31,030 nt of DNA, from positions 1-31,030 of the forward strand of contig JACCSN010000774.1 in the NCBI GenBank assembly GCA_013812985.1. The letters run 5' to 3'. The stretch comes from Hyphomicrobiales bacterium. Its GTDB lineage: Bacteria > Pseudomonadota > Alphaproteobacteria > Rhizobiales > Afifellaceae. The notes under the pieces were generated by a model. The model ran no database searches. It was not told the DNA's origin and saw nothing but the letters and a program-made list of their open reading frames with translations. A program made the translations under genes and the position numbers. Position 1 is the first letter of the stretch. Each line of letters begins with the position of its first letter. Positions 1,492 to 23,203 of the stretch are shown piece after piece.

Positions 1492-2133
1492 GTGGGCGCC
1501 GGTTCCTGCATCCCTGTTGCCGCGCTTCGGCTCGACCGCCGGGCATTGTCCGTCGGCATCCTGGCCTCGTGCGCGTCAACCGCCCTGCCGAGCCTCGCCT
1601 CCGCGGCCGATCCGGCCGGGCGGGTGGAGATGGCCAAGGGCCGTGCGACGGCGCTCCTCGACGGCCCGGCGCGGGATCTGCGGGAGGACGCCGACCTGTT
1701 CCTGCAGGAGCTTGTGCAGACCTTTGCCGGGGCGCGGCTCGCCCTGGCGCTCGGGGCCGATACGCGCGTCAACCTGGGCGAACGGACGCGATTCCGGATC
1801 GAGCAGAGCGTCGTCGATCGCGGCGGCGTGCTGCTCCTGGAGCGCGGCGCGCTGCTCTTCGACCGGCCGGATTCCGCAGAGCACGGCGAGGCGATCGTGC
1901 GCACGCCGTTCGCCATCATCGCCGCGCGGGGCACGCGCTTTTTCGTCGGCCCGAGCAACGGAGTCGTCGGCGTTTTTCTGGAGCGCGGCGCCGCCACGGT
2001 CCGCAACAACGGCGGCCGGGTCGTCCTGCAAGCGGGGGAAGGCGCCGACCTCGTCTCGCCCGACGTGCCGCCCACGCCGCCGCATCCCTGGGGCGCGGCG
2101 CGCATCGCCGCGGCATTGGCCAGCGTTACCTAG
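1492..2133 (+). CDS. Exported FecR domain protein
   Basis: This 213-residue protein has a twin-basic N-terminus, a hydrophobic stretch (about residues 20-40) and an A-S-A-A-D cleavage-like site, so it is probably periplasmic. The body is a FecR-type beta-rich domain: it starts with a short segment that sets up a threshold (GRVEMAKGRATALLDGP, then LALGADTRVNLGERTRFRIEQ), and ends with TPFAIIAARGTRFFVGP and VGVFLERGAATVRNNGG. Such FecR proteins are often encoded beside CHASE2-domain cyclases, and a CHASE2 cyclase lies here convergently with an 8-base overlap. A sensing role together with that cyclase is plausible but inferred. The GTG start is supported by GGAGG at 1480-1484 with a 7-base spacer. 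It lacks the TonB-linked context of true FecR sigma regulators. Confidence 0.85.
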   Translation: MGAGSCIPVAALRLDRRALSVGILASCASTALPSLASAADPAGRVEMAKGRATALLDGPARDLREDADLFLQELVQTFAGARLALALGADTRVNLGERTRFRIEQSVVDRGGVLLLERGALLFDRPDSAEHGEAIVRTPFAIIAARGTRFFVGPSNGVVGVFLERGAATVRNNGGRVVLQAGEGADLVSPDVPPTPPHPWGAARIAAALASVT

Positions 2134-4222: not shown

Positions 4223-4407
4223 GCCTGCGCCCCTTCTATCTCAGTCCGGGCCTGCCCATCTCCGCGCCTGAGCAGGCGAGTGGCGGCCCCTGGCGATGAG
4301 GCGCCGCAGTGCTTGCGCTCGCGGACGAAACATGCCGATCCTCGGCCGGCCAACGCCCGCCGGCGGCCGGGTGGGCGATGGACGATGAGCTTACGGAGGA
4401 GTCGCGC

Positions 4408-6159: not shown

Positions 6160-7296
6160 ATGAGGATCGCTTTCCATGCGCCGCTAAAGCCGCCCGACCA
6201 TCCGGTCGCCTCCGGCGATCGCGCCATGGCTCGCGCCTTAATTTCCGCGCTCCAGCGGTCCGGCCACGACGTTGTCGTCGTATCGCGGTTGAGGAGCTAC
6301 GATTCCGGCGACCCGGACCGGCAAGCGCGCATGGGCGCCTTGGGCGCGCGGCTGGCCGAACGACTCCTGCGCCGCTTCCGTCGGGGGGGCTGGATGCCGG
6401 ACCTCTGGTTCACCTATCACCTCTACCACAAAGCCCCCGACTGGCTCGGCCCGCAAGTTACCGCTCGCCTTGGCATCCCTTACCTGCTTGTCGAGGCGTC
6501 CTTTGCGCCTAAACAGGCCAATGGCCCATGGGCGATCGGGCATCGCGCGGTCGAGGCCGCGCTCCGCCACGCCGACCGCGTATTCCAGCCCAATCCGGCC
6601 GATAATGAATGCGTGCTGCCGCTCCTGCGATCGACGGACCGGTTGGTCCCGCTGAAGCCATTCCTGGAGACCGCGCCCTTTCGTGCGACGGAAAGAGATG
6701 AGAGCAGAAGGGACATGGCGGCCGCCTTTGGCATCGACCCCTGCGCGCCCTGGCTGCTCACGGTCGCGATGATGCGGCACGACCAGAAGCTCCTATCCTA
6801 CCGGACGCTGGCAAGCGCCCTCGCCTCGCTGACGGACCTTGCCTGGATCCTGATCGTGGCGGGCGTCGGTTCGGCCGAGGCAGAAGTGCGATCCGCCTTC
6901 GCGCCTCTCGGGCGTCGTGTCCACTGGGTCGGAATGCTCGACCGTGAGCGGCTGATCCGGCTCTACCGGAGCGCCGACCTCTTCGTCTGGCCCGCTATCA
7001 AAGAGGCCTGGGGCATGGCTCTGCTGGAGGCGCAAGCGGCGGGGCTGCCGGTGGTGGCGGGCCGCAGCGGCGGGGTCGCGGCCGTGGTGGCCGACAGCGA
7101 GAGCGGCCTGCTTGCTCCGGAGGGCGATGCCGTAGCTTTCGCAAATGCGGTGCGGGAGCTGCTCCTCGATCCGGAGCGCCGGGCAAACATGGGCCGGGCC
7201 GCGGCGGCGCGGATCGCCCGCGAGCACGACATCGGAGTCGCCGCCGCTTTCTTCGATCGCCAGCTTCGCGCGCTGACCCGCGATCCCGTCGGATGA
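6160..7296 (+). CDS. GT4 family glycosyltransferase
   Basis: This 378-residue retaining GT-B enzyme has an N-terminal acceptor domain starting MRIAFHAPLKPPDHPVASGD and a C-terminal domain with the GT4 E-x7-E signature, E282 and E290 in KEAWGMALLEAQAAGLPVV. The segment FVWPAIKEAWG and the following GRSGGVAAVV loop bind the nucleotide-sugar phosphates in the family. The glycine-serine-glycine-aspartate near residues 18-21 is also typical. It probably adds a sugar in the same pathway as its neighbours. Its stop overlaps the ATG of the phosphatase gene by four bases (ATGA), so the two are translationally coupled. Donor and acceptor are unknown. Confidence 0.9.
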   Translation: MRIAFHAPLKPPDHPVASGDRAMARALISALQRSGHDVVVVSRLRSYDSGDPDRQARMGALGARLAERLLRRFRRGGWMPDLWFTYHLYHKAPDWLGPQVTARLGIPYLLVEASFAPKQANGPWAIGHRAVEAALRHADRVFQPNPADNECVLPLLRSTDRLVPLKPFLETAPFRATERDESRRDMAAAFGIDPCAPWLLTVAMMRHDQKLLSYRTLASALASLTDLAWILIVAGVGSAEAEVRSAFAPLGRRVHWVGMLDRERLIRLYRSADLFVWPAIKEAWGMALLEAQAAGLPVVAGRSGGVAAVVADSESGLLAPEGDAVAFANAVRELLLDPERRANMGRAAAARIAREHDIGVAAAFFDRQLRALTRDPVG

Positions 7297-7874
7297 CCGC
7301 GCTCCTGGTGATCCGCCACGCCCCGACCGACTGGAACGAATCCGGCTTGATCCAGGGCCGGACGGACCGCCCGTTGAGCGAAGCCGGGCGCGAAGAACTG
7401 CGGCGCATGCGTCTGCCGGCAGGCTGGGAGGACGCGCTCTGCCTCGCAAGCCCGCTCCGCCGCGCCATGGAAACGGCCGAGTTGCTCGGCCTCGCTCCGG
7501 TCGCCGAGCCGCGCCTCGTCGAGATGGATTGGGGCGCCTGGGAAGGCCGGAGCCTCGCCGAGCTGCGCGCCGCGCCCGGGCCAGAGATGGCGCGGAACGA
7601 GGCTCGCGGGCTCGATTTTCGCCCGCCCGGCGGCGAAAGCCCCCGCGAAGTGCAGGAGCGGCTGAGGCCGCTTCTCGAGCGCCTGTCTGTCCCGACGATC
7701 GCGGTCACGCATAAGGGCGTGCTCCGCGCGCTTTACGCGATGGCGGCCGGCTGGCTGATGACGGAGAAACCACCCCAGAAGCTTCTTAACGGGCACGCGC
7801 ATCTCTTCGCCGTCAAGCCGGACGGAACGCCGGAGGTGGACCGGCTGAACATCCTGCTGAAGGCGCCGCCGTGA
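7293..7874 (+). CDS. Histidine phosphatase family protein (phosphoglycerate mutase-like)
   Basis: A 193-residue member of the histidine phosphatase superfamily. The catalytic RHxxT motif is R8-H9-A-P-T (VIRHAPTDWNESG), the conserved LASPLRRAMETAE supplies an arginine, EMDWGAWEGRSLAEL carries the acidic residues, and the second catalytic His is H140 in AVTHKGVLRAL. In this family His9 forms a phosphohistidine intermediate during hydrolysis of a small phosphate ester; CobC-type phosphatases and phosphoglycerate mutases are the nearest examples. No cobalamin genes are nearby, so a sugar phosphate or glycolipid phosphate is likelier. It overlaps genes on both sides (ATGA and GTGA), which ties it firmly to the transferases. 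Confidence 0.88.
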   Translation: MTALLVIRHAPTDWNESGLIQGRTDRPLSEAGREELRRMRLPAGWEDALCLASPLRRAMETAELLGLAPVAEPRLVEMDWGAWEGRSLAELRAAPGPEMARNEARGLDFRPPGGESPREVQERLRPLLERLSVPTIAVTHKGVLRALYAMAAGWLMTEKPPQKLLNGHAHLFAVKPDGTPEVDRLNILLKAPP

Positions 7875-9076
7875 CGCGCGGCGTGCTCTTCCATGTGCAG
7901 CACCTGCTTGGAATTGGCCACCTCAAACGCGCCGATATCCTGGCGGAAGGAATGGCGGCTCAAGGCCTCGACGTCACCGTCGCGCTAGGCGGGCCACCGC
8001 TCCCCGGCATACGATTTCGCGGTGCGAAGATCGCCGAGCTCCCCGCCGCCCGGATCGCCAACGAGGATTTTTCCACCCTGCTCGACGCGGCGGGACGTCC
8101 GGTGGACGAGAGCTGGAAGGCGGCGCGGAAGGCGGCGCTTCTGGAGCTGGCGCGGCGGACCGCTCCCGACGTCGTTCTCGTGGAGCTGTTTCCCTTCGGG
8201 CGCCGCCAGTTCCGCTTCGAGCTGATCCCGCTTCTTGAGCAGTTCGCCGAGATCGCGCCGCGGCCGCGCATCGCCTGTTCCGTCCGCGACATTCTCGTTG
8301 CTTCCAGGAAGCCCGGCCGGGACGCCGAGATCGTCTCGATCCTGCGCCGCTTCTTCGACCGCGTCCTGGTGCATGGCGATCCGACGCTGATCCCGTTTGG
8401 CGCGACTTTCGACGCTGTCCCCCAGATCGCCGACCTCATCCGTTACACCGGCTACATCACCGCCCCGGCCGAACCGGCGGCCGGGGCCGGACCAGACGAT
8501 GGCGCGGGCGAGGTGCTCATCTCGGCCGGCGGCGGCGCGGTCGGGGCGCCGCTCTTGCGCGCCGCCATGGGAGCGCGCCCGCTGACGCCGCTCGCCGATC
8601 ATGTCTGGCGCTTCCTCACCGGGCCAAACCTTCCCGACGATGAGTTCAACGAGCTCGCCCGCGGCGCCGACGGGCGCACGATCGTCGAGCGGTTCCAGGC
8701 GGATTTCCCGGCGCGGCTGAAGACGGCGGCGCTCTCGATCTCCCAGGCCGGCTACAACACCACCATGGACATCCTGCGCGCCGGCGCGCGGGCGATCGTG
8801 ATCCCTTACGAAGCCCCCGGCGAGACGGAGCAGCGGCTCCGTTCCGATATCCTGGGGCAGCAGGGCTTGCTGACGGTCCTGCCGGCCGCCGAGCTCTCGC
8901 CCGAAACTCTGGCGCACGCTGTCGAAGCGGCGCTGGCCAGGCCCGTCCCCAAGCTTGCCAAGTTCGACCTCGACGGCGCCACGACAGCGGCCAGGCTCGT
9001 CGCCGAGTTGGCGGAGGAACGCTGGGTCGGTCCTCCTCTCGGTCGTCATCCTCGGGCGAGCGATCCTCGGGCCTGA
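7871..9076 (+). CDS. GT28/MurG-like glycosyltransferase (second paralogue)
   Basis: A 401-residue GT-B, MurG-like protein. It shares architecture with the transferase at 4408-5616: an N-terminal loop FHVQHLLGIGHLKRAD, a central SVRDILVASRKPGRD, and C-terminal SQAGYNTTMDIL (residues 291-302) followed by RAIVIPYEAPGETEQRLR. The GTG start overlaps the phosphatase stop as GTGA. Oddly, its last residues (about RHPRASDPRA) are encoded by a palindromic repeat at 9043-9101, so the original C-terminus was probably replaced or extended by insertion of that element. It likely acts in the same polysaccharide or glycolipid pathway; sugar and acceptor unknown. Confidence 0.82.
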   Translation: MTRGVLFHVQHLLGIGHLKRADILAEGMAAQGLDVTVALGGPPLPGIRFRGAKIAELPAARIANEDFSTLLDAAGRPVDESWKAARKAALLELARRTAPDVVLVELFPFGRRQFRFELIPLLEQFAEIAPRPRIACSVRDILVASRKPGRDAEIVSILRRFFDRVLVHGDPTLIPFGATFDAVPQIADLIRYTGYITAPAEPAAGAGPDDGAGEVLISAGGGAVGAPLLRAAMGARPLTPLADHVWRFLTGPNLPDDEFNELARGADGRTIVERFQADFPARLKTAALSISQAGYNTTMDILRAGARAIVIPYEAPGETEQRLRSDILGQQGLLTVLPAAELSPETLAHAVEAALARPVPKLAKFDLDGATTAARLVAELAEERWVGPPLGRHPRASDPRA

Positions 9077-9105: not shown

Positions 9106-11100
9106 TTGATCGCCACCTCCAGCGAGCGCGGACATTGCCATGGCCGCATTTCCGTGCCTCCCTGCGCGCGAAAGATCTTCAGCCGCCTGGGGGCTGCCAT
9201 CGACGACCTTCTTTCCATCCGCGACCTGTCGGTCGAGTTCCGCACCATGGCCGGCCGCGTCCAGGCGGTGGACGGCCTGTCGCTCAGGGTTCAGCCAGGC
9301 ACGACGGTGGCGCTGGTCGGCGAATCCGGGTCCGGCAAGTCGGTGACGGCGCAGGCGATCATGGGCATCCTGCCGCGCACCGCCTTCATCACCGGCGGCG
9401 AGATCCTGTTCAACGACGAAGGCGGCATCCGCGATCTGGCTGCGCTGCCGCCGCGCGCCAAGGCGTTCACCGCAATCCGCGGCAACCGGATCGGCATGAT
9501 TTTTCAGGAGCCGATGACCTCGTTCTCGCCGCTGCATACGATCGGCGACCAGATCGGCGAAGCGCTCGCGGTGCATGGCACGATCTCGTCCGCCGAGAAG
9601 CGCGAGCGGACGGTCGCCATGCTTCGGCTTGTCGAGTTCCCCGAGCCCGCGGAAGCGATCGACTCCTACCCCTTCGAGCTCTCCGGGGGCTTGCGGCAAC
9701 GCGCGATGATCGCCATGGCGCTGATCTGCCGCCCGGCCCTGCTCATCGCCGACGAGCCGACCACGGCGCTCGACGTCACCGTCCAGGCGCAGATCCTGAA
9801 GCTGATCCGCGACGTGCAGAGCGAGCTCGGCATGGCCGTGCTGCTCATCACGCACGACCTTGGCGTCGTCGCCAACATGGCGGAGGAAATCGTCGTCGCC
9901 CATCACGGCCGCGTGGTGGAATCAGGCACGCTTCAGGACATTTTCGCGCGCCCGTCGCATCCCTATCTGAAGGCGCTCCTCAGAGCCGTGCCGCATTTCG
10001 AGATGAAGCCCGGCGAGCGGTTGAAGCCGATCCGCGAGATCCGGTTCTCGGCCAGCGCCTTCGCCAAGGACGCGGACGCGGCCGCGCCCGCCGGCGCGCC
10101 GGACGGCACGCTCCTGGAGGTGCGCAACCTCACCAAGCGCTTCCGCCTGCGCAAGGATGTCCGCTGGCTGTCGCGGAACAAGCAAGGCACCGTGCTGGCG
10201 CTCAAAGATGTGAGCTTCACGGTGGAGCGCGGCGAATGCCTTGGCCTTGTAGGCGAATCCGGCTCCGGCAAGAGCACGGTGAGCAAGGCGATCATGCGGG
10301 CGGTCGACTTGGACGAGGGGCAGATCGTCTTCCACGACCGCGCTGGCGCGGTCAATCTCACCGCGCTGGACCGCCGCGGCATGGAGCCGATCCGCCGAAA
10401 GGTTCATTACATTTTCCAGGATCCGTATTCGGCGCTCAATCCGCGCATGACGATCGGCCAAATCCTGGCGGAGCCCTTTGCGATTCACAGCGTCGGCAGC
10501 GATTCCACGCGCCGGGCGGCTACCGTGCGCCTCCTGGAGATGGTCGGCCTGAGCAGCCAGCATCTCAACCGCTACCCGCACAGCTTCTCCGGCGGCCAGC
10601 GCCAGCGGATCGTCATCGCCCGCGCGCTCGCGCTGCAGCCGGAGCTCGTCATCTGCGACGAGCCGGTCTCCGCGCTCGACGTCTCGATCCAGGCGCAGAT
10701 CCTCAACCTCCTGAAAGACCTGCAGAAGGAGATCGGCCTCACCTACCTGTTCATCTCGCACAATCTGGCGGTGATCAATTACATCGCGGATCGGATCGCC
10801 GTGATGTGCGCCGGAAGGCTGGTGGAGCTGGCGCCGCGGCAGGCGCTCTTCGACAACCCGCTCCACCCCTATACGCGGGCGCTGATGACGGCCGTCCCCA
10901 CCCCCGACCCGAAGCGGCCGCTCGATTTCGCCGCGATCGGCGCCGGCCGCCAGTCCGTGCCGGCGGAATGGCCCGCGCCCTTCGCCCCACACGGCGACCA
11001 GGATCCGCCGATGCTGGAGGTCGCCGACGGGCATCTCGTGCGAGCGTTCGAGCTGCCCGTTGAAGCGTCGCGACCGGCGCTGGCGATACCGGCGCAATGA
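9106..11100 (+). CDS. Fused dual-ATPase ABC transporter protein, peptide/nickel family
   Basis: One polypeptide carries two complete ABC ATPase domains of the oligopeptide/dipeptide importer type (like GsiA or YejF). Counting from 9106: Walker A GESGSGKS at about 72 and 383; signatures LSGGLRQR and FSGGQRQR; Walker [13 protein letters not shown] and [12 protein letters not shown]; and after each domain the family-specific [12 protein letters not shown] and [16 protein letters not shown]. It should energise a peptide-type permease, yet no permease or binding protein is encoded in the window. The start is uncertain. TTG 9106 lies just after the palindromic repeat, GTG 9154 is in frame, and homologous sequence only begins near 9195 ([11 protein letters not shown]), so the first 25-30 residues may not be real. 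Domain assignment is firm; substrate unknown. Confidence 0.9.
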
Positions 11101-11896: not shown

Positions 11897-14629
11897 ATGG
11901 GGCACGGCCCAGGCGCGATGGACCAGAACATCTTCCGCTACACCTGGCGGCACTCCAGGCCGGCGCAGGTCTGGCTGCTCTTCATCGTGCTCGTCTCGCT
12001 GCCCTTCTATTTCCTCTCGCTCGATCTGCCGAAGCGCATCATCAACGGGCCGATCCAGGGCGAGGGCTTCAACAGCCCGGGCGACACCGACACCGCCATG
12101 CGGATCGGCCTCGACCTGCCCGAATGGCTGGGCGGCGACTCCTTCACCCTCTTCGACGGCGTCGAGCTCGGCCGCATCTCGATGCTGACTTATCTCTGCC
12201 TCCTGTTCCTCGCCTTCGTGCTGATCAACGGCTACTTCAAGTTCTACATCTCCACCTATAAGGGCCGGCTCGGCGAGCGGATGCTTCGCCGCCTGCGCTA
12301 CGAGCTGGTCGATACGCTCCTGCGCTTTCCGCTCTCCCAATTCCGGCGGCTGCGGTCGTCGGAGATCGCGACGATGATCAAGGACGAGGTGGAGCCGCTC
12401 GGCGGCTTCATCGGCGAAGCTTTCGTCCAGCCGGCGTTCCTGCTCAGCCAGGCGCTCACCGCCATGGTCTTCATCCTGCTGCAGAGCTTTACGCTGGGCC
12501 TCATCGCCGCGGCCGTGGTGGGCGTGCAGATCGTGCTCATCCCGCGGCTTCGCCGGCGCCTGCTGGTGCTCGGCCGCCAGCGGCAGCTCACCGCCCGGGC
12601 GCTGGCCGGCCGGGTGGGCGAGATCGTCGAGGGGATCAACTCGATCCGCGTCAACGACGCGTCGAACTGGGAGCGGGCCGAGATCGCCGGGCGGCTCGGC
12701 CGCATCTTCTTCATCCGCTTCGACATCTATCAGTGGAAGTTCCTGGTCAAATTCATCAACAACCTCCTGGCGCAGGTGACCCCGTTCATTTTCTACCTGA
12801 TCGGCGGCTATCTGGCGATTACCGGCCGGCTCGATCTCGGCCAGCTCGTGGCGGTGATCGCCGCCTACAAGGACTTGCCGGGCCCGCTGAAAGACCTCAT
12901 CGACTGGGACCAGCAGCGCCTCGACGTGCAGGTCAAATACACGCAGGTCGTCGAGCAGTTCTCGATCGCCAAGGTGCTCGATCCGGCGCTGCAGAAGCTC
13001 GATCCCGCCGCGCCCGCGCGCATCGGGCGCGACATCAATGTCGCCAACATCTCGATCTGCGACGATTCCGGCGCCACGCTGCTGGAATCGACCAGCCTCA
13101 GGCTTGCGCCGGGCGAGGCTGTCGCCGCGGTCGGGCTGGTCGGAGCGGGCGGCGAATACCTGGCGGAAGCTCTGGCGCGTCTCCAGGAGCCGGTCTCCGG
13201 GCGGATCTTGTTCGACGGCGCGTCCATCGAGACGCTCCCCGACGCGGTGATCGGCCGGCGCATCGGCTATGCCGAGGCCAACACCTATTTCCCGCAATCC
13301 ACATTGCGGGACAGCCTGGTTTACGGACTGCGGCACGCGCCGCTGCGGCCGGCCGGCAAGGACGCCGGCGCGGAACGGCGTCGCCGCGCCGAGGCGCTCG
13401 CCGCCGGCAACATCGACGTGGACGTCGACGACGACTGGATCGATTACGCCTCGGCGGGCGCCACGAGCCCGGAGGACCTGAACGATCGGCTGCGTGAAAT
13501 TCTGCTCGTCGTCGATCTTGAGCCTGACATTTACCGGCTTGGGCTGAGGAGCCGCATGCCCCTACAGTCATCCGCCGATCTGGAGAGCCAGGTCCTTTCG
13601 GCCCGCGAGGAGTTCCGCGCCAGGCTGGTGAAAGCCAAGGTGGAGCATTACGTCGAGGTCTTCGACCCCGACCGCTATGTGGTGAACGCCACGGTCATGG
13701 AGAACCTCGTCTTCGGCGTCGCCGTCCCGGAGGCGATCGGCGGGCGGCTTGAGGACCATGCCTACCTGATCGCCACGCTGGCGGATACCGGGCTGCACCA
13801 TAAGCTTGCCGCGATGGGGCTGAAGATCGCCGAAACCCTGATCGACCTGTTCGGCGATCTGGCGCCCGACAATCCGCTCCTGGAGCGCATGGACCTGATG
13901 GCGCCGGAGGAGATCGAGCGCTACCGGACCATCCTTCGCCGCGCCGGCGGCGGCCCGGACGCGGCGCCGGAGTCGGTCGACCGCCCCGCCGTCCTCAAGC
14001 TCGCCTTCGGCTATATCGAACCCCGGCACCGGCTTGGCCTGCTCACGCCGGAGCTGCAAGCCGACATCGTCACCGGCCGGGGGAAATTCCGCGCCAAGCT
14101 GCCGGCGGAACTCGCCGACGCGGTGAAGTTCCATCAGCCCGGCGCCGTCAACCCCGCCGCCAGCATCCAGGACAACGTGCTTTTCGGGCGCATCGTCGAC
14201 ATCTATGCGGAAGCCGGCGATGTGGTGAGCGCGATCTTGCGGCAGGCCATGGACGCGCTCGATTTGACCGGCGAGGTGATCGAGCTCGGCCTCGGATTCG
14301 ATATCGGCAGCGGCGGCAAGCGGCTGTCGCTCGCCCAGCAGCAGAAGCTCGCTCTGGCCCGCGCGCTGGTGAAGCGGCCGGACCTCCTCATCGTCAATCG
14401 CGCGCTGGCGGCGCTCGACGCGAATGCGCAAGACGCCACCGTCACGCGTGTGCTTGACTATGCCCGCGCCGAGAATGGGCCGGATTTCGCGACATTCTGG
14501 GTGCTGAGCCATCCCGGATCCGGGCAATGGTTCGACCGGGTCCTGACCTTCGAAAACGGCCGTGTGGTCAGGACAGAGGAGCGGAGGCAAAAGACGGCGG
14601 CGAAGCCGGCATCCGTGCGGGCCGGATAA
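11897..14629 (+). CDS. ABC exporter-like protein with degenerate, insertion-bearing ATPase domain
   Basis: A 910-residue protein. The N-terminal half is an exporter-type transmembrane domain with about six helices (near 24-45, 95-120, 170-215 and 285-325). The C-terminal half is an ABC ATPase domain stripped of its catalytic motifs: the Walker A position (413-421) reads GLVGAGGEY with no lysine; the signature (810-814) is LSLAQ; Walker B (830-836) is LLIVNRA, so the Asp and Glu are lost. The D-loop ALD (839-841) and the H-loop His872 remain. Walker A to signature spans about 397 residues against roughly 100 normally. The motif [ST]-[LVI]-x-x-[NS]-[LV]-x-[YF]-G occurs three times (469-477, 599-607, 756-764), suggesting repeats within the insertion. 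The ATG at 11918 is an equally good start. First gene of a six-gene unit. ATP hydrolysis is unlikely by the usual mechanism. Confidence 0.88.
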   Translation: MGHGPGAMDQNIFRYTWRHSRPAQVWLLFIVLVSLPFYFLSLDLPKRIINGPIQGEGFNSPGDTDTAMRIGLDLPEWLGGDSFTLFDGVELGRISMLTYLCLLFLAFVLINGYFKFYISTYKGRLGERMLRRLRYELVDTLLRFPLSQFRRLRSSEIATMIKDEVEPLGGFIGEAFVQPAFLLSQALTAMVFILLQSFTLGLIAAAVVGVQIVLIPRLRRRLLVLGRQRQLTARALAGRVGEIVEGINSIRVNDASNWERAEIAGRLGRIFFIRFDIYQWKFLVKFINNLLAQVTPFIFYLIGGYLAITGRLDLGQLVAVIAAYKDLPGPLKDLIDWDQQRLDVQVKYTQVVEQFSIAKVLDPALQKLDPAAPARIGRDINVANISICDDSGATLLESTSLRLAPGEAVAAVGLVGAGGEYLAEALARLQEPVSGRILFDGASIETLPDAVIGRRIGYAEANTYFPQSTLRDSLVYGLRHAPLRPAGKDAGAERRRRAEALAAGNIDVDVDDDWIDYASAGATSPEDLNDRLREILLVVDLEPDIYRLGLRSRMPLQSSADLESQVLSAREEFRARLVKAKVEHYVEVFDPDRYVVNATVMENLVFGVAVPEAIGGRLEDHAYLIATLADTGLHHKLAAMGLKIAETLIDLFGDLAPDNPLLERMDLMAPEEIERYRTILRRAGGGPDAAPESVDRPAVLKLAFGYIEPRHRLGLLTPELQADIVTGRGKFRAKLPAELADAVKFHQPGAVNPAASIQDNVLFGRIVDIYAEAGDVVSAILRQAMDALDLTGEVIELGLGFDIGSGGKRLSLAQQQKLALARALVKRPDLLIVNRALAALDANAQDATVTRVLDYARAENGPDFATFWVLSHPGSGQWFDRVLTFENGRVVRTEERRQKTAAKPASVRAG

Positions 14630-14679
14630 GTTTTCACATCCGCGCGTTAAGGTTGGAGGAACCAAGGGGTGAGGGACAA

Positions 14680-15144
14680 TTGAGCCGCTTGAGCAATGAG
14701 GTGGAGCTGCTTCGCCGCGTCCCGCTATTCTCCGGGATCGACCCGGCCCGGCTGAAGCTCCTCGCCTATACGTCGGACGTCGTCACGTATCACGCCGGCC
14801 AGGTGCTGTTCCGACGCGGCGATGTCGGCGACGCCGCTTATGTCATCATCGAGGGCAGCGCGGAAGTAACGGTGGCCACCGATTCCGGCGAGATTCCGGT
14901 CGCTCGGCTGAAGGACGGCGATTTCCTCGGCGAGATCGCCATCCTCTGCGATACGCCGCGGACGGCGACGGTGACCGCCCGCAGCGAGCTGCGGACGCTG
15001 CGGATCCGCAAGGAGCCGTTTTTCGAGCTGCTTCGCCAATTCCCGGAAATGGCGATCGAGCTGACGCGGATGCTGGCGGAGCGCCTCACCCGCACGACCG
15101 CGGAGCTGATCGAGGTTCAACGGTTGCGGGCCGCCGCGACATGA
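14680..15144 (+). CDS. Stand-alone cyclic-nucleotide-binding domain protein
   Basis: A 154-residue single CRP/cyclic-nucleotide-binding domain. The opening LRRVPLFSGIDPARLKLLAY is typical, then VLFRRGDVGDAAYVIIEGSAEV. The phosphate-binding cassette reads FLGEIAILCDTPRTATVTA with Glu85 (ribose 2'-OH) and Arg94 (cyclic phosphate) both present, so it should bind cAMP or cGMP. There is no helix-turn-helix after the C-helix, so it is not a DNA-binding regulator; it more likely acts on a partner, the best candidate being the preceding ABC protein. The TTG at 14680 follows a GAGGG at 14671-14675; an in-frame TTG at 14653 is an alternative. It is 50 bases after the ABC gene. Confidence 0.85.
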   Translation: MSRLSNEVELLRRVPLFSGIDPARLKLLAYTSDVVTYHAGQVLFRRGDVGDAAYVIIEGSAEVTVATDSGEIPVARLKDGDFLGEIAILCDTPRTATVTARSELRTLRIRKEPFFELLRQFPEMAIELTRMLAERLTRTTAELIEVQRLRAAAT

Positions 15145-15163
15145 CCGGCCGGGGCATCGCCGG

Positions 15164-15994
15164 ATGAGCGCTTCCCCGTTTCTCGTCCGCGTCTGGGGCG
15201 CGCGCGGCAGCGTGCCGGCGCCGGCGGCCGAAAACTGCGCTTCCGGCAGCGACACCTGCTGCGTCGAAATGCGCTGCGGCGAGCATGTGCTGATCTTCGA
15301 CGCGGGATCCGGCGCGCTCAGCCTGGGCGCCGATCTTCTCTGCCGGAACGTATTCGATCTCGATCTCTTCTTCAGCCATTGCCACTTCGACCACATCATT
15401 GGGCTGCCGTTCATCAAGCCGCTCTACGATACGGCCGTGAAAGCGCGGCTTTACGCCGGCCATTTCACCGACGGGACGACCTGCCGGGAGATGGCCGAGC
15501 GCTTCATGGGCCCGCCCTATTTCCCGCTCACGCCAAAACAGTTCCGCGCCGACATCGAGTTCCTCGACTTCCAGCCGCCGGAGACTCTCCGCCCGCATCC
15601 CGGCATCGCCATCCGAACGGCGCGGCTCAATCATCCGAACGGCGCGGTCGGCTACCGGGTGGAATTCGACGGCCGCTCGGTGTGCTACATCACCGACACC
15701 GAGCACGTGCCGGGGCAGCTCGATGCGGGGCTTGTATCTCTCATCCGCTCCGCCGACATCATGATTTATGATTGCATGTACACGGACGACGAGTTCAACC
15801 CGTGCATCGGCTACGGCCATTCCACCTGGCAGGAAGGCGTTCGCCTCTGCGAGGCGGCAGGTGTTGAGCAACTGGTCATCTTCCATCACCGCCCCGGGCG
15901 GGACGATAGCGGCCTGGAGCGGATCGAGGCGGAAGCCCGGGCGCGCTTTCCCGGCGCGGTCGTCGCCCGCACCGGCCTTGAATTGACGCCGTAG
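15164..15994 (+). CDS. MBL-fold metallo-hydrolase
   Basis: A 276-residue metallo-beta-lactamase-fold enzyme. The metal motif HxHxDH is H72-H74-D76-H77 (SHCHFDHIIG), with further ligands H157 (RLNHPNG), D178 (YITDTEH) and H241/H242 (VIFHHRPGRDD). The N-terminus VRVWGARGSVPAP is characteristic of a phosphodiesterase-like MBL subgroup. A bimetal centre of this kind hydrolyses phosphoesters in several relatives, so in this operon, beside a cyclic-nucleotide-binding domain and cyclase-like proteins, hydrolysis of a cyclic nucleotide is the natural hypothesis, but nothing in the sequence proves it. Nineteen bases separate it from each neighbouring gene. Confidence 0.88.
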   Translation: MSASPFLVRVWGARGSVPAPAAENCASGSDTCCVEMRCGEHVLIFDAGSGALSLGADLLCRNVFDLDLFFSHCHFDHIIGLPFIKPLYDTAVKARLYAGHFTDGTTCREMAERFMGPPYFPLTPKQFRADIEFLDFQPPETLRPHPGIAIRTARLNHPNGAVGYRVEFDGRSVCYITDTEHVPGQLDAGLVSLIRSADIMIYDCMYTDDEFNPCIGYGHSTWQEGVRLCEAAGVEQLVIFHHRPGRDDSGLERIEAEARARFPGAVVARTGLELTP

Positions 15995-16013
15995 AACCGA
16001 GCGGAACGGCAAG

Positions 16014-17240
16014 ATGGCGGAATCGAGCCTCATCACCCAGATCAACGACTGGCTCATCGACCAGGCGCTGGGCGACCCCGATATCGTCGACCTCTTCGAA
16101 GGCGTCTGCAACCGGCTCTCCGCCATCGGCATTCCGATCTCGCGAGCGGTGCTGATGTGGTCGACGCTGCATCCGCTGTTCCGAGCCGAGCTGGTGTCGT
16201 GGCGAAGAGGCTCTCCCGCCCAGCTGGACCAATTCATCCACCAGGACACAGTGTCCGACGTGTGGCTGCGCAGCACCATGAAATTCATGCTGGACAACAA
16301 CTTGCAGGTTCTGAGGCGGCGGCTGACGGGACCGGAGAAGCTCGTCGATTTCACGATCCTGGAGGACCTAGCCGCCGAGGGATACACCGACTATCTCATC
16401 ATCGCCACGGACCTTTTCGCCCGCCCCCATGCTCACGACCAAAGCCGCCGCGGCATGTTCGTCAGCTGGAGCTCCGACCGGCCGACGGGCTTCACCGACG
16501 GTGAGCTGGAATGCCTCCAGCGCATCCAGCGCCGGCTATCGGTCGCCTGCAAGACCGTCATCCAGGCGCGTATCTCCCGCAATATCACGGAAGCCTATCT
16601 CGGCAAGCAGACCGGTCAGCAAGTCCTCGACGGTTTGATCCGCCTCGGCGACGGGCGGGAGACGCGCGCGCTCGTCTGGTATTCCGACCTCAGGAATTCC
16701 ACCGGGCTCGCCGAGACGATGCCCAGCGCGGAATTCCTCGATCTTCTCAACGCCTATTTCGAATGCGCGGCGCGCCCGGCCATCGCGGCGGGCGGCGAGG
16801 TGCTGGCCTTTGTCGGCGACGCCGTGCTGGCCATCTTTCCCGTGGCCGACGAGGCCGAATTGCCTGCAATCACCCGCCGCGCGCTTTCCGCCCTGCGGGT
16901 CTCGCTCATCCTGACCGATCGCATGAATGCCGAGCGAAAGCAGGCCGGCTTGCAGCCGATCCGCTACGGTGTCGGGCTGAATATCGGCGCCGTGATGTAC
17001 GGCAATATCGGCGTCCCGGAGCGCCTGGCCTTCTCCGCCATCGGGCCGACCGTGATCGAGGTCGCCCGCATCGAGAAGCTTACCAAGACGGTCGGCTCGC
17101 GCGTTCTCGCCACGCCGCAAGTCGCCTCCCTGGAGCCGCACCTCTGGCGCTCGGTGGGCGAGCATCCTTTGCAGGGCATCGGCAGGCCGCAAGAAATCTT
17201 CGGGTTCCGCGAGGAAGCGGCGGCTCTGGAAGCCGCGTGA
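16014..17240 (+). CDS. Class III nucleotide cyclase-like protein lacking base-recognition residues
   Basis: A 408-residue soluble protein. Residues 1-195 form a GAF-like N-terminal region (IIATDLFARPH; MFVSWSSDRPTGFTDGELECL). A class III cyclase domain (about 215-395) follows. Metal aspartates are present at D225 (WYSDLRNST) and D269 (FVGDAVLAIF), and the transition-state arginine at R352. The base-recognition lysine is A265 (GGEVLAFVGD), the recognition aspartate is A339 with S341 after it (RLAFSAIG), and the transition-state asparagine is I348 (GPTVIEVAR). So it either makes an unusual nucleotide, is a pseudo-cyclase, or works as half of a heterodimer, perhaps with the DUF3095 product four bases downstream. 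It differs sharply from the intact cyclase at 2126-4222. Confidence 0.85.
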   Translation: MAESSLITQINDWLIDQALGDPDIVDLFEGVCNRLSAIGIPISRAVLMWSTLHPLFRAELVSWRRGSPAQLDQFIHQDTVSDVWLRSTMKFMLDNNLQVLRRRLTGPEKLVDFTILEDLAAEGYTDYLIIATDLFARPHAHDQSRRGMFVSWSSDRPTGFTDGELECLQRIQRRLSVACKTVIQARISRNITEAYLGKQTGQQVLDGLIRLGDGRETRALVWYSDLRNSTGLAETMPSAEFLDLLNAYFECAARPAIAAGGEVLAFVGDAVLAIFPVADEAELPAITRRALSALRVSLILTDRMNAERKQAGLQPIRYGVGLNIGAVMYGNIGVPERLAFSAIGPTVIEVARIEKLTKTVGSRVLATPQVASLEPHLWRSVGEHPLQGIGRPQEIFGFREEAAALEAA

Positions 17241-17244
17241 TCCC

Positions 17245-18438
17245 GTGCACCCGGAACCAGCCAGGGATTTCCGCTACGAGGACCTGCGGATCTTCGACGC
17301 CTTCGAGCGCGTGAGCGAGCCGGGCGTCTACACGCCGCTCCCGGACGATTGGATGGTCGGCGTCGCCGACGTCGTTAACTCCACGGGCGCGCTGAAAGGC
17401 GGGCGCTATAAGGCGGTCAACATGGCGGGCGCCTCGGTCGTCGCCGCGGTCATGAACGCGCTCGGCGGGGCCAAATTCCCCTTTGTCTTCGCCGGCGACG
17501 GGGCCGTCCTGGCCGTCCCGGCGGAGGCGGGCGGAAGGACGCGTGGGGCAATGGCGGCGACGGCCAACTACGTGGCCGCGGAGTTGGGCCTCGGGCTTCG
17601 CGTCGGCATGGTGTCGGTCGGCGCCATCCGTGCCGCCGGCCATGACATGCGGGTCGCCCGTTACGCCGCCTCCTCCGAGGCCATATACGCCATGTTCGCC
17701 GGCGGCGGCGCGAGCTACGCCGAAGCCGAGCTGAAGGCCGGGCGCATCACGCTCGATCCGGCGCCCGCGGACAGGCGCCCTGACCTTACCGGCCTGTCGT
17801 GCCGCTGGTCGCCGCTACAGGCGCGGCGCGGCGTGATCCTCTCCATCTTGGTCGTCCCGGCGCATGGCGCTTCGCCCGATGCGTTCCGGCGCATCGCGAC
17901 GGGGGTCATCCGCATGACCGAGGAGGTGGAGCGCGGCGGCAATCCCGTGCCGGTCGGCGGGCCGCAATTCGCGCTCAACCTCCGGGGCTTGAACACGGAG
18001 GCCGGCGCCGCACGCAAGCGCTTCGGGTTCCGGCCCATGCGCCTCGCCAAGCTCCTCGGCGAAATGCTGATCGGGATCGCGCTGGACAGAGCGGGGCGGC
18101 CGCTCCACGGCTTCGACCCGCGGCGCTACCGCTCCTGGGTCCCGATGAACTCGGACTTTCGCAAGTTCGACGACGCCTTGCGCATGACGATCGACTGCGC
18201 GCCTGAAGCGGCGGATCGGATCGAGGCGTTCCTGGTGGAGGCGGAGGCGGGGCGGATCGTCGATTACGGCCTGCACCGGCAGAATGCGGCGCTGATGACC
18301 TGCATCGTCCCGTCCATGTTCGAGGACGATCATTTGCATTTCCTTGACGGCGCCGGCGGCGGCTATGCGCTCTCGGCGCGAGTCATGAAGGAACGGCTGG
18401 CGACCCGCGGGAGCGCCGGCGCGGGGCTTGACGCCTGA
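17245..18438 (+). CDS. DUF3095 family protein, cyclase-like N-terminal half
   Basis: A 397-residue protein matching DUF3095. The N-terminal half carries YTPLPDDWMVGVADVVNSTGAL with D42, GRYKAVNMAGASVVAAVMNAL, and FPFVFAGDGAVLAVP with D85. The spacing and context of D42 (after a hydrophobic strand and before N-S-T) and D85 (in GDGAV) mirror the two metal aspartates of class III cyclases, so the fold is probably the same; this is pattern-based inference. No N-x3-R transition-state motif is evident. The C-terminal half has a conserved DFRKFDDALRMTIDC and YGLHRQNAALMTCIVPS. The GTG start lies 4 bases after the cyclase-like gene, and the stop overlaps the next ATG. Function is undescribed as far as I know. 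Confidence 0.82.
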   Translation: MHPEPARDFRYEDLRIFDAFERVSEPGVYTPLPDDWMVGVADVVNSTGALKGGRYKAVNMAGASVVAAVMNALGGAKFPFVFAGDGAVLAVPAEAGGRTRGAMAATANYVAAELGLGLRVGMVSVGAIRAAGHDMRVARYAASSEAIYAMFAGGGASYAEAELKAGRITLDPAPADRRPDLTGLSCRWSPLQARRGVILSILVVPAHGASPDAFRRIATGVIRMTEEVERGGNPVPVGGPQFALNLRGLNTEAGAARKRFGFRPMRLAKLLGEMLIGIALDRAGRPLHGFDPRRYRSWVPMNSDFRKFDDALRMTIDCAPEAADRIEAFLVEAEAGRIVDYGLHRQNAALMTCIVPSMFEDDHLHFLDGAGGGYALSARVMKERLATRGSAGAGLDA

Positions 18439-19280
18439 TGCGGGACGAGGCCCGGCGTCTTGGCTTCGGTCTCCTGACGCTTTCCGGCCTGAGACGGCGC
18501 GGCTTCTTCATCCCTTATCGCTACGCCGATCATGTCCCCTCCCGCCCCAACCGTGCGCCCTACGAAGCCTTGGAGCCGCTCTTCGCGGCCGCCGAGCCAG
18601 CCTTCGCCGCTCTCCTGGATCGCATCGACGCTCATGCCGGGGCGCTGCAGGCGATCGGCGGCGGCAGGCCGCCGGAGCCGCGCTGGCGGCAGGACTGGTT
18701 CCCGCGGCTCGACGCGGCCGCCGCTTATGTGCTGCTCCGCGACCGCCGGCCGCGGCGGATCGTCGAGGTCGGCTCCGGCCATTCCACCCGTTTCCTGGCC
18801 CGCGCGATCCGCGACGCTGGTCTCGCAACCGAACTCACCGCGATCGACCCGGCCCCTCGCGCCTCCCTGGACGGGCTGGGCGCCAGCATGATCCGCAAGA
18901 CGGTCCAGGAGGCGGGCGTCGCGCCTTTCGCCGCGCTTGCGCCGGGCGACATGCTTTTCATCGATTCAAGCCATATCCTCCTGCCCGGCACCGACGTGGA
19001 TTTCCTCTTCAACCGCGTTCTGCCCACCCTTCCCGCCGGAGTGCTGGTGCATATCCACGACGTGTTCCTCCCCGACGATTACCCGCCCGGTTGGGACTGG
19101 CGCGGCTACAACGAGCAGCTTGGCGTGGCGGCGCTGATCCAGGGCGGCGGTTTCCGGCTCCTCTGGGCGAGCCGCTACGTCGCGACCCGGATGGCGGACG
19201 CGGTGGCGTCCAGCGCTGCCGGCGGGCTCGACCTCATGCCCGACGCCCATGAAGCGAGCCTTTGGCTCGCAAAGGTTTGA
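18438..19280 (+). CDS. Class I SAM-dependent methyltransferase (Methyltransf_24-like)
   Basis: A 280-residue protein whose motif I is RIVEVGSGHSTRFLARAI (residues 107-124), with ELTAIDPAP as motif II and MLFIDSSHI further on. The pattern IVEVGSGHSTRF followed by a DSSH element is typical of the Methyltransf_24 group. The N-terminal 100 residues (RRGFFIPYRYADHVP) look like a substrate-binding or membrane-contacting extension. The ATG overlaps the DUF3095 stop (TGATG), making this the last gene of the unit. Its substrate is unknown; methylation of a small molecule or lipid made or exported by the cassette is possible. Confidence 0.85.
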   Translation: MRDEARRLGFGLLTLSGLRRRGFFIPYRYADHVPSRPNRAPYEALEPLFAAAEPAFAALLDRIDAHAGALQAIGGGRPPEPRWRQDWFPRLDAAAAYVLLRDRRPRRIVEVGSGHSTRFLARAIRDAGLATELTAIDPAPRASLDGLGASMIRKTVQEAGVAPFAALAPGDMLFIDSSHILLPGTDVDFLFNRVLPTLPAGVLVHIHDVFLPDDYPPGWDWRGYNEQLGVAALIQGGGFRLLWASRYVATRMADAVASSAAGGLDLMPDAHEASLWLAKV

Positions 19281-20279: not shown

Positions 20280-22148
20280 ATGGCCAGGGTCGCGTACGTG
20301 ATGCTCGCCCACGAGCAGCCGGACCAGGTTGCCGCGCATGTCGAGCTGCTCACCGCGGCCGACCCTTCCGCCGTGGTTCTCATCCATTATGACGGAAATG
20401 CGCCGGCGGCGGACTTCACGGTTCTGAAGGATCGCCTGTCATCCGATCCCAGGGCATTCGTGGTTCCCGACCGTGCCCGGTGCGGGTGGGGAGAGTTCGG
20501 TCTGGTCCAGGGTCCTCTCAACGCGCTTCGCGAGATCGCCAGGCTGAATGCCGAACCTGATTACGTCTACCTGATCAGCGGATCCTGCCTGCCGATCCGC
20601 CCGCTTGCCGAGCTCAACAGATTTCTCGATGAGCAGGCTGGAACGGAATTCATCCAGGCCGAGGACGCAAGCTGGATGCTGGCGGGCCTCAGGCGAGAAC
20701 GTTTCGAGTTTTATTTCCCGCTGAGCTTCAAGAAGCGGCGGCGGCTCTTCGATCTGTTCGTCCGCCTGCAAAGGTGGCTGAAGGTAAAGCGTAAGCCGCC
20801 GGACATGCTTGAGCCCCGCTTCGGATCGCAATGGTGGTGCCTGACCTGGAGCACGTGCCGAGCGATCCTCGCCTATCTCGACAAGCGGCCGGATGTGTCG
20901 AGCTTCTTTCGCCTGACCTGGATCCCCGACGAATCGTTCTTTCAGACGCTCGCCTTTCGGTTCGCCGACCGCTCGCGGCTGGCCGGGCGGACGCTGACGC
21001 TTCATCAGTTCAGCGCCAAAGGCAAACCGCTGGTGTTCTTCGATGAGCATGAGCCGTGGCTCTTCGCCCAGAAGTTCTTTTTCGCCCGCAAGATATCGCC
21101 GGAAGCAACCCTTCTGAAGCGGAAGATCGCGGCAATCGCGGCCGAGCCGCACCGGGACCGCCCTATTCATGAGGTTGGCGGGACGACTCCTTTCTACGCC
21201 GCGGCGATCTGGCTGCGCGGAAAGCGGGAGCGGCCCGGTCAGGTGTTCCGGCCGGATCACCGAGTGGAAAGCTACCCCGGCTCGATGAGCCGGAACGTCA
21301 GGCCCTATGTCATGCTTTTTGGTCCGGGAACCGCTACCCGAATCGCCGCCAAAGCCATCCACCGGAATGGTGGCGTCGTTCTCGGGCGCCTGTTCCACAG
21401 GGAACGCGTCGGCTTCGATGATCATGGCGAGGAGCTCCGCGGGCTCACGCCAGGTGATGTCCGGATCCGCGATTTCGACCTCTCGCTCTACCTCTGCCGC
21501 GCCCTCGACCGGGCGCCGCCTTTGCCGGTGATCGAGCAGGCGCTGTTCGACAACCCCAAGGCCACATTTCTGGCCTATGACGACCCGAATTGCCTGTTCG
21601 TCGCTTGCCTCCCCCGCCCCGATGTCTTTGGCCTGCCTCGCGACTGGGATGCTGAGACATGGCGCCTGTTCCTGGCCCTCGGCATCGTGGAGCCGGGCAG
21701 CAAGATGGCGCCGGAGTTCAGCCCGGCATGGCGGGAGCTGATCCAGTCTGTCGGCGACGAGGGCCTTTGGGCCTATACGATCGAACGGCTTCTCAAGCCC
21801 TATGATGAGCATGAAATCATACCCTGGCTGAAGCAAAAGGGTGTAGCCGCCACAGGCAGGAGCAATCTCCTGATCATGTCATGGGGCGGCGACCATGGCG
21901 GGCGACGGGCGTCGCTCGACGAGATTGCGCGCGTTCAGACCCAATGGATCCACGGCGAAGCTATCGACCGGGACGCCTTCGAGGCCGCCGCCGTCGCCCT
22001 CAGCGAAGCCCGCCTCAGTCAGGCCGAGATCGAGGCGCCCGCCGAAATCGCCGAGCGGCTATTCAGCACCTTGGCCAGGCAAAGAATGTTCGGAATGGAG
22101 CCGGGCAGCCGCCTCGAAGTCGTTCCGATGTCCGGCAGACGGTCCTGA
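20280..22148 (+). CDS. Core-2/I-branching (GT14-like) glycosyltransferase with long C-terminal extension
   Basis: A 622-residue enzyme. Residues 1-290 are a beta-1,6-N-acetylglucosaminyltransferase/xylosyltransferase-type GT14 domain: MARVAYVMLAHEQPDQVAAH, VLIHYDGNAP, YVYLISGSCLPIRPL, GSQWWCLTW and the acidic TWIPDESFFQTL. The remaining 330 residues form a second domain that accompanies this GT in alphaproteobacteria (I believe DUF5928); it includes VMLFGPGTATRIAAKAI and LLIMSWGGDHGGRR. It probably builds branches of a surface polysaccharide. AAGGA lies just before the ATG. The next gene, a GT2-type enzyme, begins 11 bases after its stop, so the two are co-transcribed. Catalytic details are inferred from family. 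Confidence 0.85.
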   Translation: MARVAYVMLAHEQPDQVAAHVELLTAADPSAVVLIHYDGNAPAADFTVLKDRLSSDPRAFVVPDRARCGWGEFGLVQGPLNALREIARLNAEPDYVYLISGSCLPIRPLAELNRFLDEQAGTEFIQAEDASWMLAGLRRERFEFYFPLSFKKRRRLFDLFVRLQRWLKVKRKPPDMLEPRFGSQWWCLTWSTCRAILAYLDKRPDVSSFFRLTWIPDESFFQTLAFRFADRSRLAGRTLTLHQFSAKGKPLVFFDEHEPWLFAQKFFFARKISPEATLLKRKIAAIAAEPHRDRPIHEVGGTTPFYAAAIWLRGKRERPGQVFRPDHRVESYPGSMSRNVRPYVMLFGPGTATRIAAKAIHRNGGVVLGRLFHRERVGFDDHGEELRGLTPGDVRIRDFDLSLYLCRALDRAPPLPVIEQALFDNPKATFLAYDDPNCLFVACLPRPDVFGLPRDWDAETWRLFLALGIVEPGSKMAPEFSPAWRELIQSVGDEGLWAYTIERLLKPYDEHEIIPWLKQKGVAATGRSNLLIMSWGGDHGGRRASLDEIARVQTQWIHGEAIDRDAFEAAAVALSEARLSQAEIEAPAEIAERLFSTLARQRMFGMEPGSRLEVVPMSGRRS

Positions 22149-22159
22149 CGAGGCAGAGG

Positions 22160-23203
22160 ATGGTCACGGGGACGGTCATGAAAGCGAAGCGGGGGGTGGG
22201 GGCCCTGGTCGGGCAAGGCGTCGGCACGCTGAGGAGCTACCCTCCATACTTATCCCGAGCATACGTGAAGTCGTTCAGCCTCCGGCCGGTCGCCAACCGG
22301 ACGCGCAACTTGGCCCGAAGCGACATCGTTCTCGTTTCCTGCCAGCGCAACGAACTCGCTCGCCTGCCGCACTTCTTCGATCATTACCGCAGGCTCGGAG
22401 TGAGGCATTTCCTGTTCGTCGACAACGATTCGGACGACGGCAGCAGGGAGTGGCTGAGCCGGCAGCCGGATTGCTCGGTCTGGCGCACGACAGCCAGCTA
22501 CCGGCGCGCCAATTTTGGCATGGATTGGTGCAATGCCCTCTTGCGGCGCTATGGCGGGGGGCGCTGGTGCGTCACCGTCGATCCCGACGAATTCCTGGTC
22601 TATCCGCGAATGGAAACGCGGTCCTTGCGCGCGCTGTGCCAGTTCCTCGACGACGAAGGGCGGCGCTCCTTTCACGCCCTTATGATCGACGCCTATTCCG
22701 ACCGGGCGCTGAGCCAAACCGAATATGCGATTGGCGACAACCCGTTCGCGGTCTGCCCTTTCTTCGACCGCGACGGGTATTCGCAAAGGGCCGGATGGGG
22801 GCGCTCCACCTACATTCAGGGCGGCCCCAGGATGCGCGCCTACTATGCCGAGCTCCCGGAGAAGGCTCCCGCGCTGAACAAGATCCCGCTGATCAAATGG
22901 CGATGGTATTATTATTATCGCTCCTCTATGCACGATTGTCGGCCGCTTTACCTGAACAACCCGCAACACCGGAGCGAAGCCCCGCCGACCGGGTGCCTCT
23001 TTCACTTCAAGTTCATGTCCTCGCTTTCAGCCAAGGTGGCGGAGGAGATGCGGCGCCAGCAGCATTACGCCGGCAGCGCGGAATACAAGCGATACGGATC
23101 GGTGGATGATCTTACGTTGTTCCGGGACGGATTGAGCGTTCGCTATGAATCGCCGCGGCAGCTGGTCGATCTTGGTTTGATGAACGAGGGGGAGTGGTTC
23201 TGA
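22160..23203 (+). CDS. GT2-type glycosyltransferase
   Basis: A 347-residue transferase of the GT-A type often annotated glycosyltransferase family 2 in alphaproteobacteria. After an N-terminal extension of about 50 residues the domain starts DIVLVSCQRNELARLPHFFDHYRRLGVRHFLFVDNDSDDGS. The metal-binding motif is D141-P-D143-E (VTVDPDEFLVYP), followed by FHFKFMSSLSAKV near the C-terminus. It probably transfers a sugar to a surface polysaccharide with the preceding GT14-type enzyme. The ATG at 22160 has a GAGG six bases upstream; an ATG at 22178 is also possible. Donor and acceptor are unknown. Confidence 0.83.
   Translation: MVTGTVMKAKRGVGALVGQGVGTLRSYPPYLSRAYVKSFSLRPVANRTRNLARSDIVLVSCQRNELARLPHFFDHYRRLGVRHFLFVDNDSDDGSREWLSRQPDCSVWRTTASYRRANFGMDWCNALLRRYGGGRWCVTVDPDEFLVYPRMETRSLRALCQFLDDEGRRSFHALMIDAYSDRALSQTEYAIGDNPFAVCPFFDRDGYSQRAGWGRSTYIQGGPRMRAYYAELPEKAPALNKIPLIKWRWYYYYRSSMHDCRPLYLNNPQHRSEAPPTGCLFHFKFMSSLSAKVAEEMRRQQHYAGSAEYKRYGSVDDLTLFRDGLSVRYESPRQLVDLGLMNEGEWF

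Follow-up and report, generated by a model that had tools for sequence, protein, structure and literature searches.

An ABC exporter-fold protein with decayed ATPase motifs is paired with a cyclic-nucleotide-binding protein in a candidate surface-glycan locus of Alphaproteobacteria

The DNA analysed here is a stretch of 31,030 nucleotides from a Hyphomicrobiales bacterium (contig JACCSN010000774.1), hereafter called the window. We examined a run of six genes that begins with those for an ATP-binding cassette (ABC) protein of the exporter fold and a cyclic-nucleotide-binding (CNB) protein, and the same genes were followed through related loci. A preliminary description of the window had proposed that five adjacent genes with gaps of 4-50 bases form a nucleotide-signalling cassette, with an overlapping methyltransferase gene as the sixth. 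The open reading frames (ORFs) bore out this layout, with gaps of 50, 19, 19 and 4 bases from ABC to DUF3095, a one-base overlap between DUF3095 and the methyltransferase, and all six genes in the same direction:

11897..14629, + strand, ABC exporter-fold protein, 910 amino acids (Pfam, motif census, repeats)
14680..15144, + strand, CNB, stand-alone cyclic-nucleotide-binding protein, 154 amino acids (Pfam; position after ABC; ligand residues)
15164..15994, + strand, MBL, metallo-beta-lactamase-fold hydrolase (Pfam; metal-site residues intact)
16014..17240, + strand, CYC, relative of class III nucleotide cyclases (Pfam, profile and alignment)
17245..18438, + strand, DUF3095 protein (Pfam; cyclase likeness at motif level only)
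18438..19280, + strand, methyltransferase, Methyltransf_24 (Pfam)

The Pfam E-values were 5.6e-20 (ABC_membrane) and 5.4e-13 (ABC_tran) for the ABC protein, 1.5e-22 for CNB (cNMP_binding), 3.5e-19 for MBL (Lactamase_B_2, in keeping with the hydrolase first described), 1.2e-5 for CYC (Guanylate_cyc, a weak match), 1.3e-119 for DUF3095 and 7e-12 for Methyltransf_24. Among the NCBIfam families shown, no cut-off for a named function was reached by any of the six products. The CNB gene starts with TTG within a longer ORF (14527-15144). In locus L001 (loci bear our own numbers), a close relative of the methyltransferase gene likewise comes after CYC.

The ABC protein and its CNB partner

The ABC protein carries an exporter transmembrane region (PF00664) followed by a nucleotide-binding domain (PF00005), both above the Pfam curated cut-offs. 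Its transmembrane part and the order of its nucleotide-binding-domain segments are those of MsbA-like/ABCB exporters (type IV fold), from which it differs by the loss of catalytic residues and by about 297 extra positions that separate the two halves of the nucleotide-binding domain, as judged against ABCB1 (chain 6c0v), whose segment order is the same. This extra stretch holds three Q-loop-like repeats, at about residues 456-480, 584-609 and 740-766; aligned without a shuffled control, repeats 2 and 3 matched with a probability of 98 (E 1.4e-13), repeats 1 and 3 with 94, and repeats 1 and 2 with 91.

Family members were collected by a protein search that gave 5,612 matches at E <= 0.001 among 7,994 candidates scored. 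Proteins were drawn from the best 120 of these matches, and the remainder will include ordinary ABC proteins. The alignment comprised 239 proteins: that of the window, 121 from the fetched loci (one per locus) and the 117 among the best 120 matches that exceed 850 amino acids; because many of these are near relatives, 72 representatives at 70% identity were also counted. Five catalytic residues were tested: the Walker A Lys, the Ser/Thr after it, the Walker B Asp, the catalytic Glu and the H-loop His. In the window protein the first four are replaced (Lys by Gly, Ser/Thr by Glu, Asp by Asn and Glu by Arg), and the His-aligned residue alone is kept. The lost ATPase motifs noted in the preliminary description proved to be a property of the family, since none of the 239 proteins keeps all five residues; 141 keep none, 79 keep one, 16 keep two, three keep three, and none keeps more. 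Lys survives at the Walker A position in 25 of 239, and Glu or Asp stands in place of the following Ser/Thr in 232. At Walker B, Asp is replaced by Asn in 216; the catalytic Glu has given way to Arg in 194 and persists in 21. The 72 representatives retain Lys in 22 cases, Asp in 5 and Glu in 19. Judged from these alignments, the decay of the ATPase motifs is family-wide yet graded, and the ABC protein of the window most likely no longer hydrolyses ATP. SUR and CFTR are non-pump ABC proteins that act as a regulator or a channel and have degenerate sites; unlike the ABC protein here, they keep part of the ATP machinery and have no CNB partner. In the record of Sinorhizobium meliloti 1021 pSymB (L152, about 19724-22436), the ABC gene aligns in two pieces and its ORF begins late, so that its frame looks broken near the start in that record; in most other S. 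meliloti records listed it aligns in one piece.

The pairing of this protein with CNB was assessed in two samples. The close-relative sample is the best 80 of 578 confirmed loci, and counts cover the fetched stretches only. The broad sample was drawn from 289 genomes of the class of the window's relatives, 95 of which were ABC-positive (E <= 1e-150); 40 alphaproteobacterial places were chosen and stretches of about 12-20 kb fetched. In 120 of 121 loci a profile search placed CNB on the strand of ABC and at most 900 bases downstream of it, and the profile gave no further match at E 1e-5 across 2.56 Mb. The two occur together in 80/80 close-relative loci and 39/40 broad loci, and in six of the 40 broad loci (L114, L115, L117, L118, L120 and L121) they form a single open frame. 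All three fused frames that were scanned carry both ABC_membrane and cNMP_binding, and the L121 fusion has lost the ABC_tran match. Because of this adjacency and these fusions, ABC and CNB are very probably one unit. The phosphate-binding cassette of CNB is present with its Gly-Glu and Arg, and the ligand residues are conserved over 126 CNB domains (Gly84 in 126, Glu85 in 123, Arg94 in 126 and Thr95 in 121), which extends to the family the intact Glu85 and Arg94 first reported for the lone CNB of the window. Thr at the place of Thr95 is usual in cGMP-dependent kinases and does not settle the ligand. The domain scan gave no helix-turn-helix match in CNB. By sequence match, CNB is like the domain of SthK-type cyclic-nucleotide-gated channels, which there controls the membrane protein; the membrane protein here is of the ABC fold instead, and CNB is mostly encoded apart from it. 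Of the ligand-gated ABC complex originally proposed, the tie between a degenerate ABC protein and a cyclic-nucleotide sensor thus stood (120/121 adjacent, 6/40 fused). L157 (1411-3966), from a genome in which ABC did not reach the threshold used, has a CNB-like ORF (29.5% identity, 40 bits) after a DUF3095 gene, which may be a second case of DUF3095 paired with CNB.

The nearest known relative in design is HetC of Nostoc, an ABC exporter in which, according to its published description, a CNB-type domain and an ATPase residue are both needed and ppGpp was the best ligand found (PMC10986499). As in HetC, a CNB-type domain is paired with an ABC exporter fold, which in HetC it controls and for whose function it is required; HetC has an N-terminal CNB, a C39 peptidase domain and an essential ATPase residue, and here CNB is separate or C-terminal (PMC10986499). 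Unlike HetC, the ABC protein gave no peptidase match in the Pfam scan, and its catalytic Glu is Arg. HetC, as a CNB-bearing exporter that needs its ATPase residue, lends weight to an alternative in which the ABC protein would have kept nucleotide-driven export, with the glycan or a lipid-linked precursor as cargo. It would do so through an unorthodox nucleotide-binding domain or on energy from a partner ATPase, and CNB would only tune it, as in HetC. The MsbA-like transmembrane part agrees with this, as do the Lys and Glu that some members retain and the constant neighbour OppDF, an intact pair of ABC ATPases. The replacement of four catalytic residues in the window protein and the lack of a single complete set among 239 members count against it, and the apparent OppDF-ABC fusion is an artefact: the fusion in L005 and L010 was rejected because the open frame upstream of ABC contains no OppDF sequence. 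Overall, we regard continued nucleotide-driven export as unlikely, though serious enough to be weighed.

Putative enzyme genes that accompany the pair in Rhizobiales

CYC resembles class III nucleotide cyclases with a profile probability of 99.5, and both metal Asp residues and the transition-state Arg are present in 44/44 copies. The altered base recognition noted earlier held across the copies: the place of the adenine-specifying Lys, which the other cyclases aligned with CYC do fill with Lys, is Ser in 31, Ala in 12 (the residue in the window) and Glu in one, and that of the conserved Asn is Asn in 32, Thr in 10 and Ile in two, with Ile in the window. MBL keeps its seven metal-site residues in 30/30 copies and shows a weak likeness, below cut-offs, to RNase Z and to a cyclic-nucleotide-degrading phosphodiesterase. 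The DUF3095 protein had been called cyclase-like, and this stood in part. It has the DUF3095 domain and an Asp-x-x-x-Ser-Thr motif with a Gly-Asp-Gly motif 43 residues on, also found in members about 30% identical, so placed that Asp42 and Asp85 are laid out like the metal residues of class III cyclases at the level of motifs. Profile comparisons with cyclases (hhalign) were not significant (E 0.03, 0.24 and 0.075, probability <2%), and the best single hmmsearch match, local and weak, had an E-value of 8.5e-4 among 120 sequences, against 0.11 for the best shuffled control. DUF3095 was therefore rejected as a proven cyclase; by its motifs it is perhaps one. No paper on DUF3095 by name was found in the open-access literature searched. 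One of the 44 rows of the DUF3095 alignment, an ORF of L033 (8606-9823, - strand), was rejected as a wrong-strand artefact; counts of 42 of 43 taken from these rows set aside either this ORF or a gap. In L013, L021, L033, L060 and L074, CNB is directly followed by a cyclase with a 2Fe-2S ferredoxin domain (at about 13.2-15.0 kb; 7.0-8.8 kb in L033), which keeps the canonical Lys; the Fer2 and Guanylate_cyc domains were shown for L021, and the other four were assigned by sequence cluster.

Of the 80 close-relative loci, 31 have MBL in the fetched stretch, 23 have CYC (>200 bits) and 14 have DUF3095; the 10 that have all five genes are all Mesorhizobium. Because many Rhizobium stretches ended near OppDF, the genomes of 20 further loci without CYC in the fetched stretch were searched for CYC, DUF3095 and MBL. 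In 20/20 the best CYC match shared the contig and lay on the Opp side, no more than about 2 kb from the stretch end. DUF3095 was on the same contig in 20/20 and within 2.5 kb of CYC in 19, the other genome having it in two pieces 9.7 kb from CYC; MBL was on a separate contig in one genome and no more than about 21 kb from CYC in the other 19. These genomes were picked for having ABC and are therefore uninformative on how often ABC occurs without the other genes. In the 40 broad loci, neither MBL (0/40) nor DUF3095 (0/40) was found in the fetched stretches, and a cyclase was found in four by tblastn (L113, L114, L116 and L118) and in four by profile (L086, weakly, L113, L114 and L116). Across the 289 genomes, ABC was present in 95, DUF3095 in 16 and both in 13, on the same contig in four (>580 kb apart) and on different contigs in nine. 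In a sample of 274 genomes from the class to which Plasticicumulans (G002) belongs, four have ABC and seven have DUF3095; only G002 has both, about 5 kb apart.

MBL, CYC and DUF3095 are thus an accessory layer that recurs with ABC and CNB in Rhizobiales. The expected recurrence of the five genes held within other Rhizobiales (10/80 loci; 19-20 of the 20 chosen genomes), and the idea of a self-contained five-gene cassette was not upheld. An ABC protein occurring mostly without the others had been named at the outset as evidence to the contrary, and this is in part what the 40 broad loci showed. The same counts bear on a second alternative, namely that ABC and CNB are a real unit and that CYC, DUF3095 and MBL are independent genes merely sharing a glycan region. 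In its favour, the pair is found without them in the broad sample, as much as about 21 kb and unrelated genes can separate them in Rhizobium, and DUF3095 stands away from ABC in the broad genomes (13 of the 16 with DUF3095 have ABC, on another contig or >580 kb apart). It fits poorly with the way in which these genes accompany the locus in 19-20 of the 20 chosen genomes and in ten Mesorhizobium loci, and directly follow CNB in the window, and we consider it distinctly unlikely.

The combination of a class III cyclase, a CNB receptor and a membrane partner is also that of Pycsar, as described in PMC11224242, and a defence system of this kind would have a cyclase signalling through CNB to a membrane effector. 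Among the PADLOC models, CYC matches those of PycC (best 2e-17) and CNB those of PycTIR type (best 2.9e-14), but we infer that these are cross-family matches of the sort that any class III cyclase and any CNB domain would give. In contrast to Pycsar as described there, the genes here lie in a conserved glycan locus, with an ABC-fold partner, MBL and DUF3095 (PMC11224242). ABC and CNB persist without a nearby cyclase in most broad loci, and a search restricted to close DNA similarity gave no near match in the phage collection. A defence role is, in our judgement, very improbable.

The surface-glycan neighbourhood

The conserved locus extends well beyond the genes first singled out, which missed its glycosyltransferase and Opp genes. 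In the window these and other neighbours are:

9106..11100, + strand, OppDF, fused ABC ATPase pair of oligopeptide-transporter type, motifs intact (conserved locus member)
7871..9076, + strand, GTc, family-28-type glycosyltransferase
7293..7874, + strand, histidine phosphatase
6160..7296, + strand, GT4-type glycosyltransferase (GT9a)
4309..5616, + strand, GTa, family-28-type glycosyltransferase
2126..4222, - strand, second cyclase, CHASE2 and Guanylate_cyc
20280..23203, + strand, two further glycosyltransferases (Branch; Glyco_tranf_2_4), overlapping ORFs (Pfam)

In 29 of the 40 broad loci a glycosyltransferase module, mostly divergent from ABC, adjoins it, and OppDF is present in 25 of those 29. 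On Rhizobium etli p42e the order is cyclase, OppDF, substrate-binding protein, two permeases, three glycosyltransferases, ABC and CNB. On pRL11 of R. johnstonii 3841 (56.2-87.3 kb), CNB, ABC, three glycosyltransferases, two permeases, a substrate-binding protein, OppDF and CYC share the span with a nucleotide-sugar dehydrogenase, DUF3095, a second cyclase, a polysaccharide deacetylase and MBL, with unrelated genes interspersed. S. meliloti 1021 pSymB (822.5-845 kb) has a matching gene set; one permease, missing from our ORF calls, is present in an annotated strain. Published statements on SMb20811, SMb20813 and smb20804/05 did not map to this locus and are left aside. Also nearby in the window are the histidine phosphatase, further glycosyltransferases, a rhamnosyltransferase and a sulfotransferase; the Opp permeases and binding protein gave no match among the window ORFs scanned. 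The glycosyltransferases, together with a peptide-type (Opp) transporter, point to a surface-glycan locus. From RefSeq tags counted from repA, which we take to be gene 1 of pRL11, the sugar-nucleotide dehydrogenase of the ABC-CNB locus is probably pRL110056, with a possible error of a gene or two. A transposon study of R. leguminosarum 3841 identified pRL110056 as an O-antigen-type enzyme important for root colonisation (PMC11103875).

The sulfotransferase-domain gene and the putative rhamnosyltransferase gene lie at 23959-25975 of the window and hint at a sulfated, rhamnose-containing glycan. At the edge of the glycan locus, a FecR-domain gene adjoins the opposite-strand CHASE2-cyclase gene (1492-4222), and at the place matching this cyclase another class III cyclase stands in nine loci (L001-L006, L009, L010 and L024). 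Between OppDF and ABC (11158-11753, + strand), a HigB-like toxin gene (PF05015, 1.5e-8) is directly followed by a helix-turn-helix gene; they look like a type II toxin-antitoxin pair, which was not seen there in the other loci compared by eye.

A proposed sensor-controlled ABC-fold protein

ABC and CNB are steadily paired and in some loci fused, the ligand cassette is conserved and catalytic residues are lost; together these findings favour a sensor-controlled ABC-fold protein over an ordinary pump, and the glycan setting suggests what it acts on. In the proposed mechanism, the exporter-shaped and most likely non-hydrolysing ABC protein and CNB, which would dock on it where the two are not fused, form a two-part membrane core. 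Binding of a ligand by CNB would alter the state of the ABC protein. The glycosyltransferases encoded nearby would make a surface glycan, and the ABC protein may serve its export or assembly as a ligand-gated passage or flippase, or as a regulatory scaffold. Rhizobiales would have added a local signalling layer, with the nucleotide produced by CYC, and perhaps by DUF3095, and cleared by MBL; outside Rhizobiales the ligand may come from distant cyclases or be another one.

Several observations weigh against this proposal. The Walker A Lys in 25 and the catalytic Glu in 21 of 239 proteins are still present, and with so graded a decay some members may still bind or even use ATP. L111 has ABC without CNB. 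No cyclase lies near the pair in 36 of the 40 broad loci, so that the neighbourhood there implies no cyclic-nucleotide ligand. A CNB-type domain may also bind other ligands, the HetC report giving ppGpp, not cAMP, as the one bound (PMC10986499). Taking both sides together, our confidence is evenly balanced that the ABC-fold protein is non-hydrolysing, is under cyclic-nucleotide control and serves to gate or regulate the export or assembly of the glycan. More doubtful, and put forward tentatively, is the fuller version: an ATP-independent, cyclic-nucleotide-gated gate or receptor for glycan export across a large alphaproteobacterial family, served in Rhizobiales by a hydrolase and by the non-canonical cyclases CYC and DUF3095, perhaps with a product other than cAMP. 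We found no description of an ABC-CNB locus in the open-access literature, a coverage outside which subscription papers mostly fall.

If the proposal is true, an ABC exporter fold has traded its ATP engine for a cyclic-nucleotide sensor, and whether such a fold can serve as a ligand-gated passage or switch would become directly testable. DUF3095 would gain a first genomic setting, and cyclic-nucleotide signals may be tied to the surface glycans of root-colonising bacteria.

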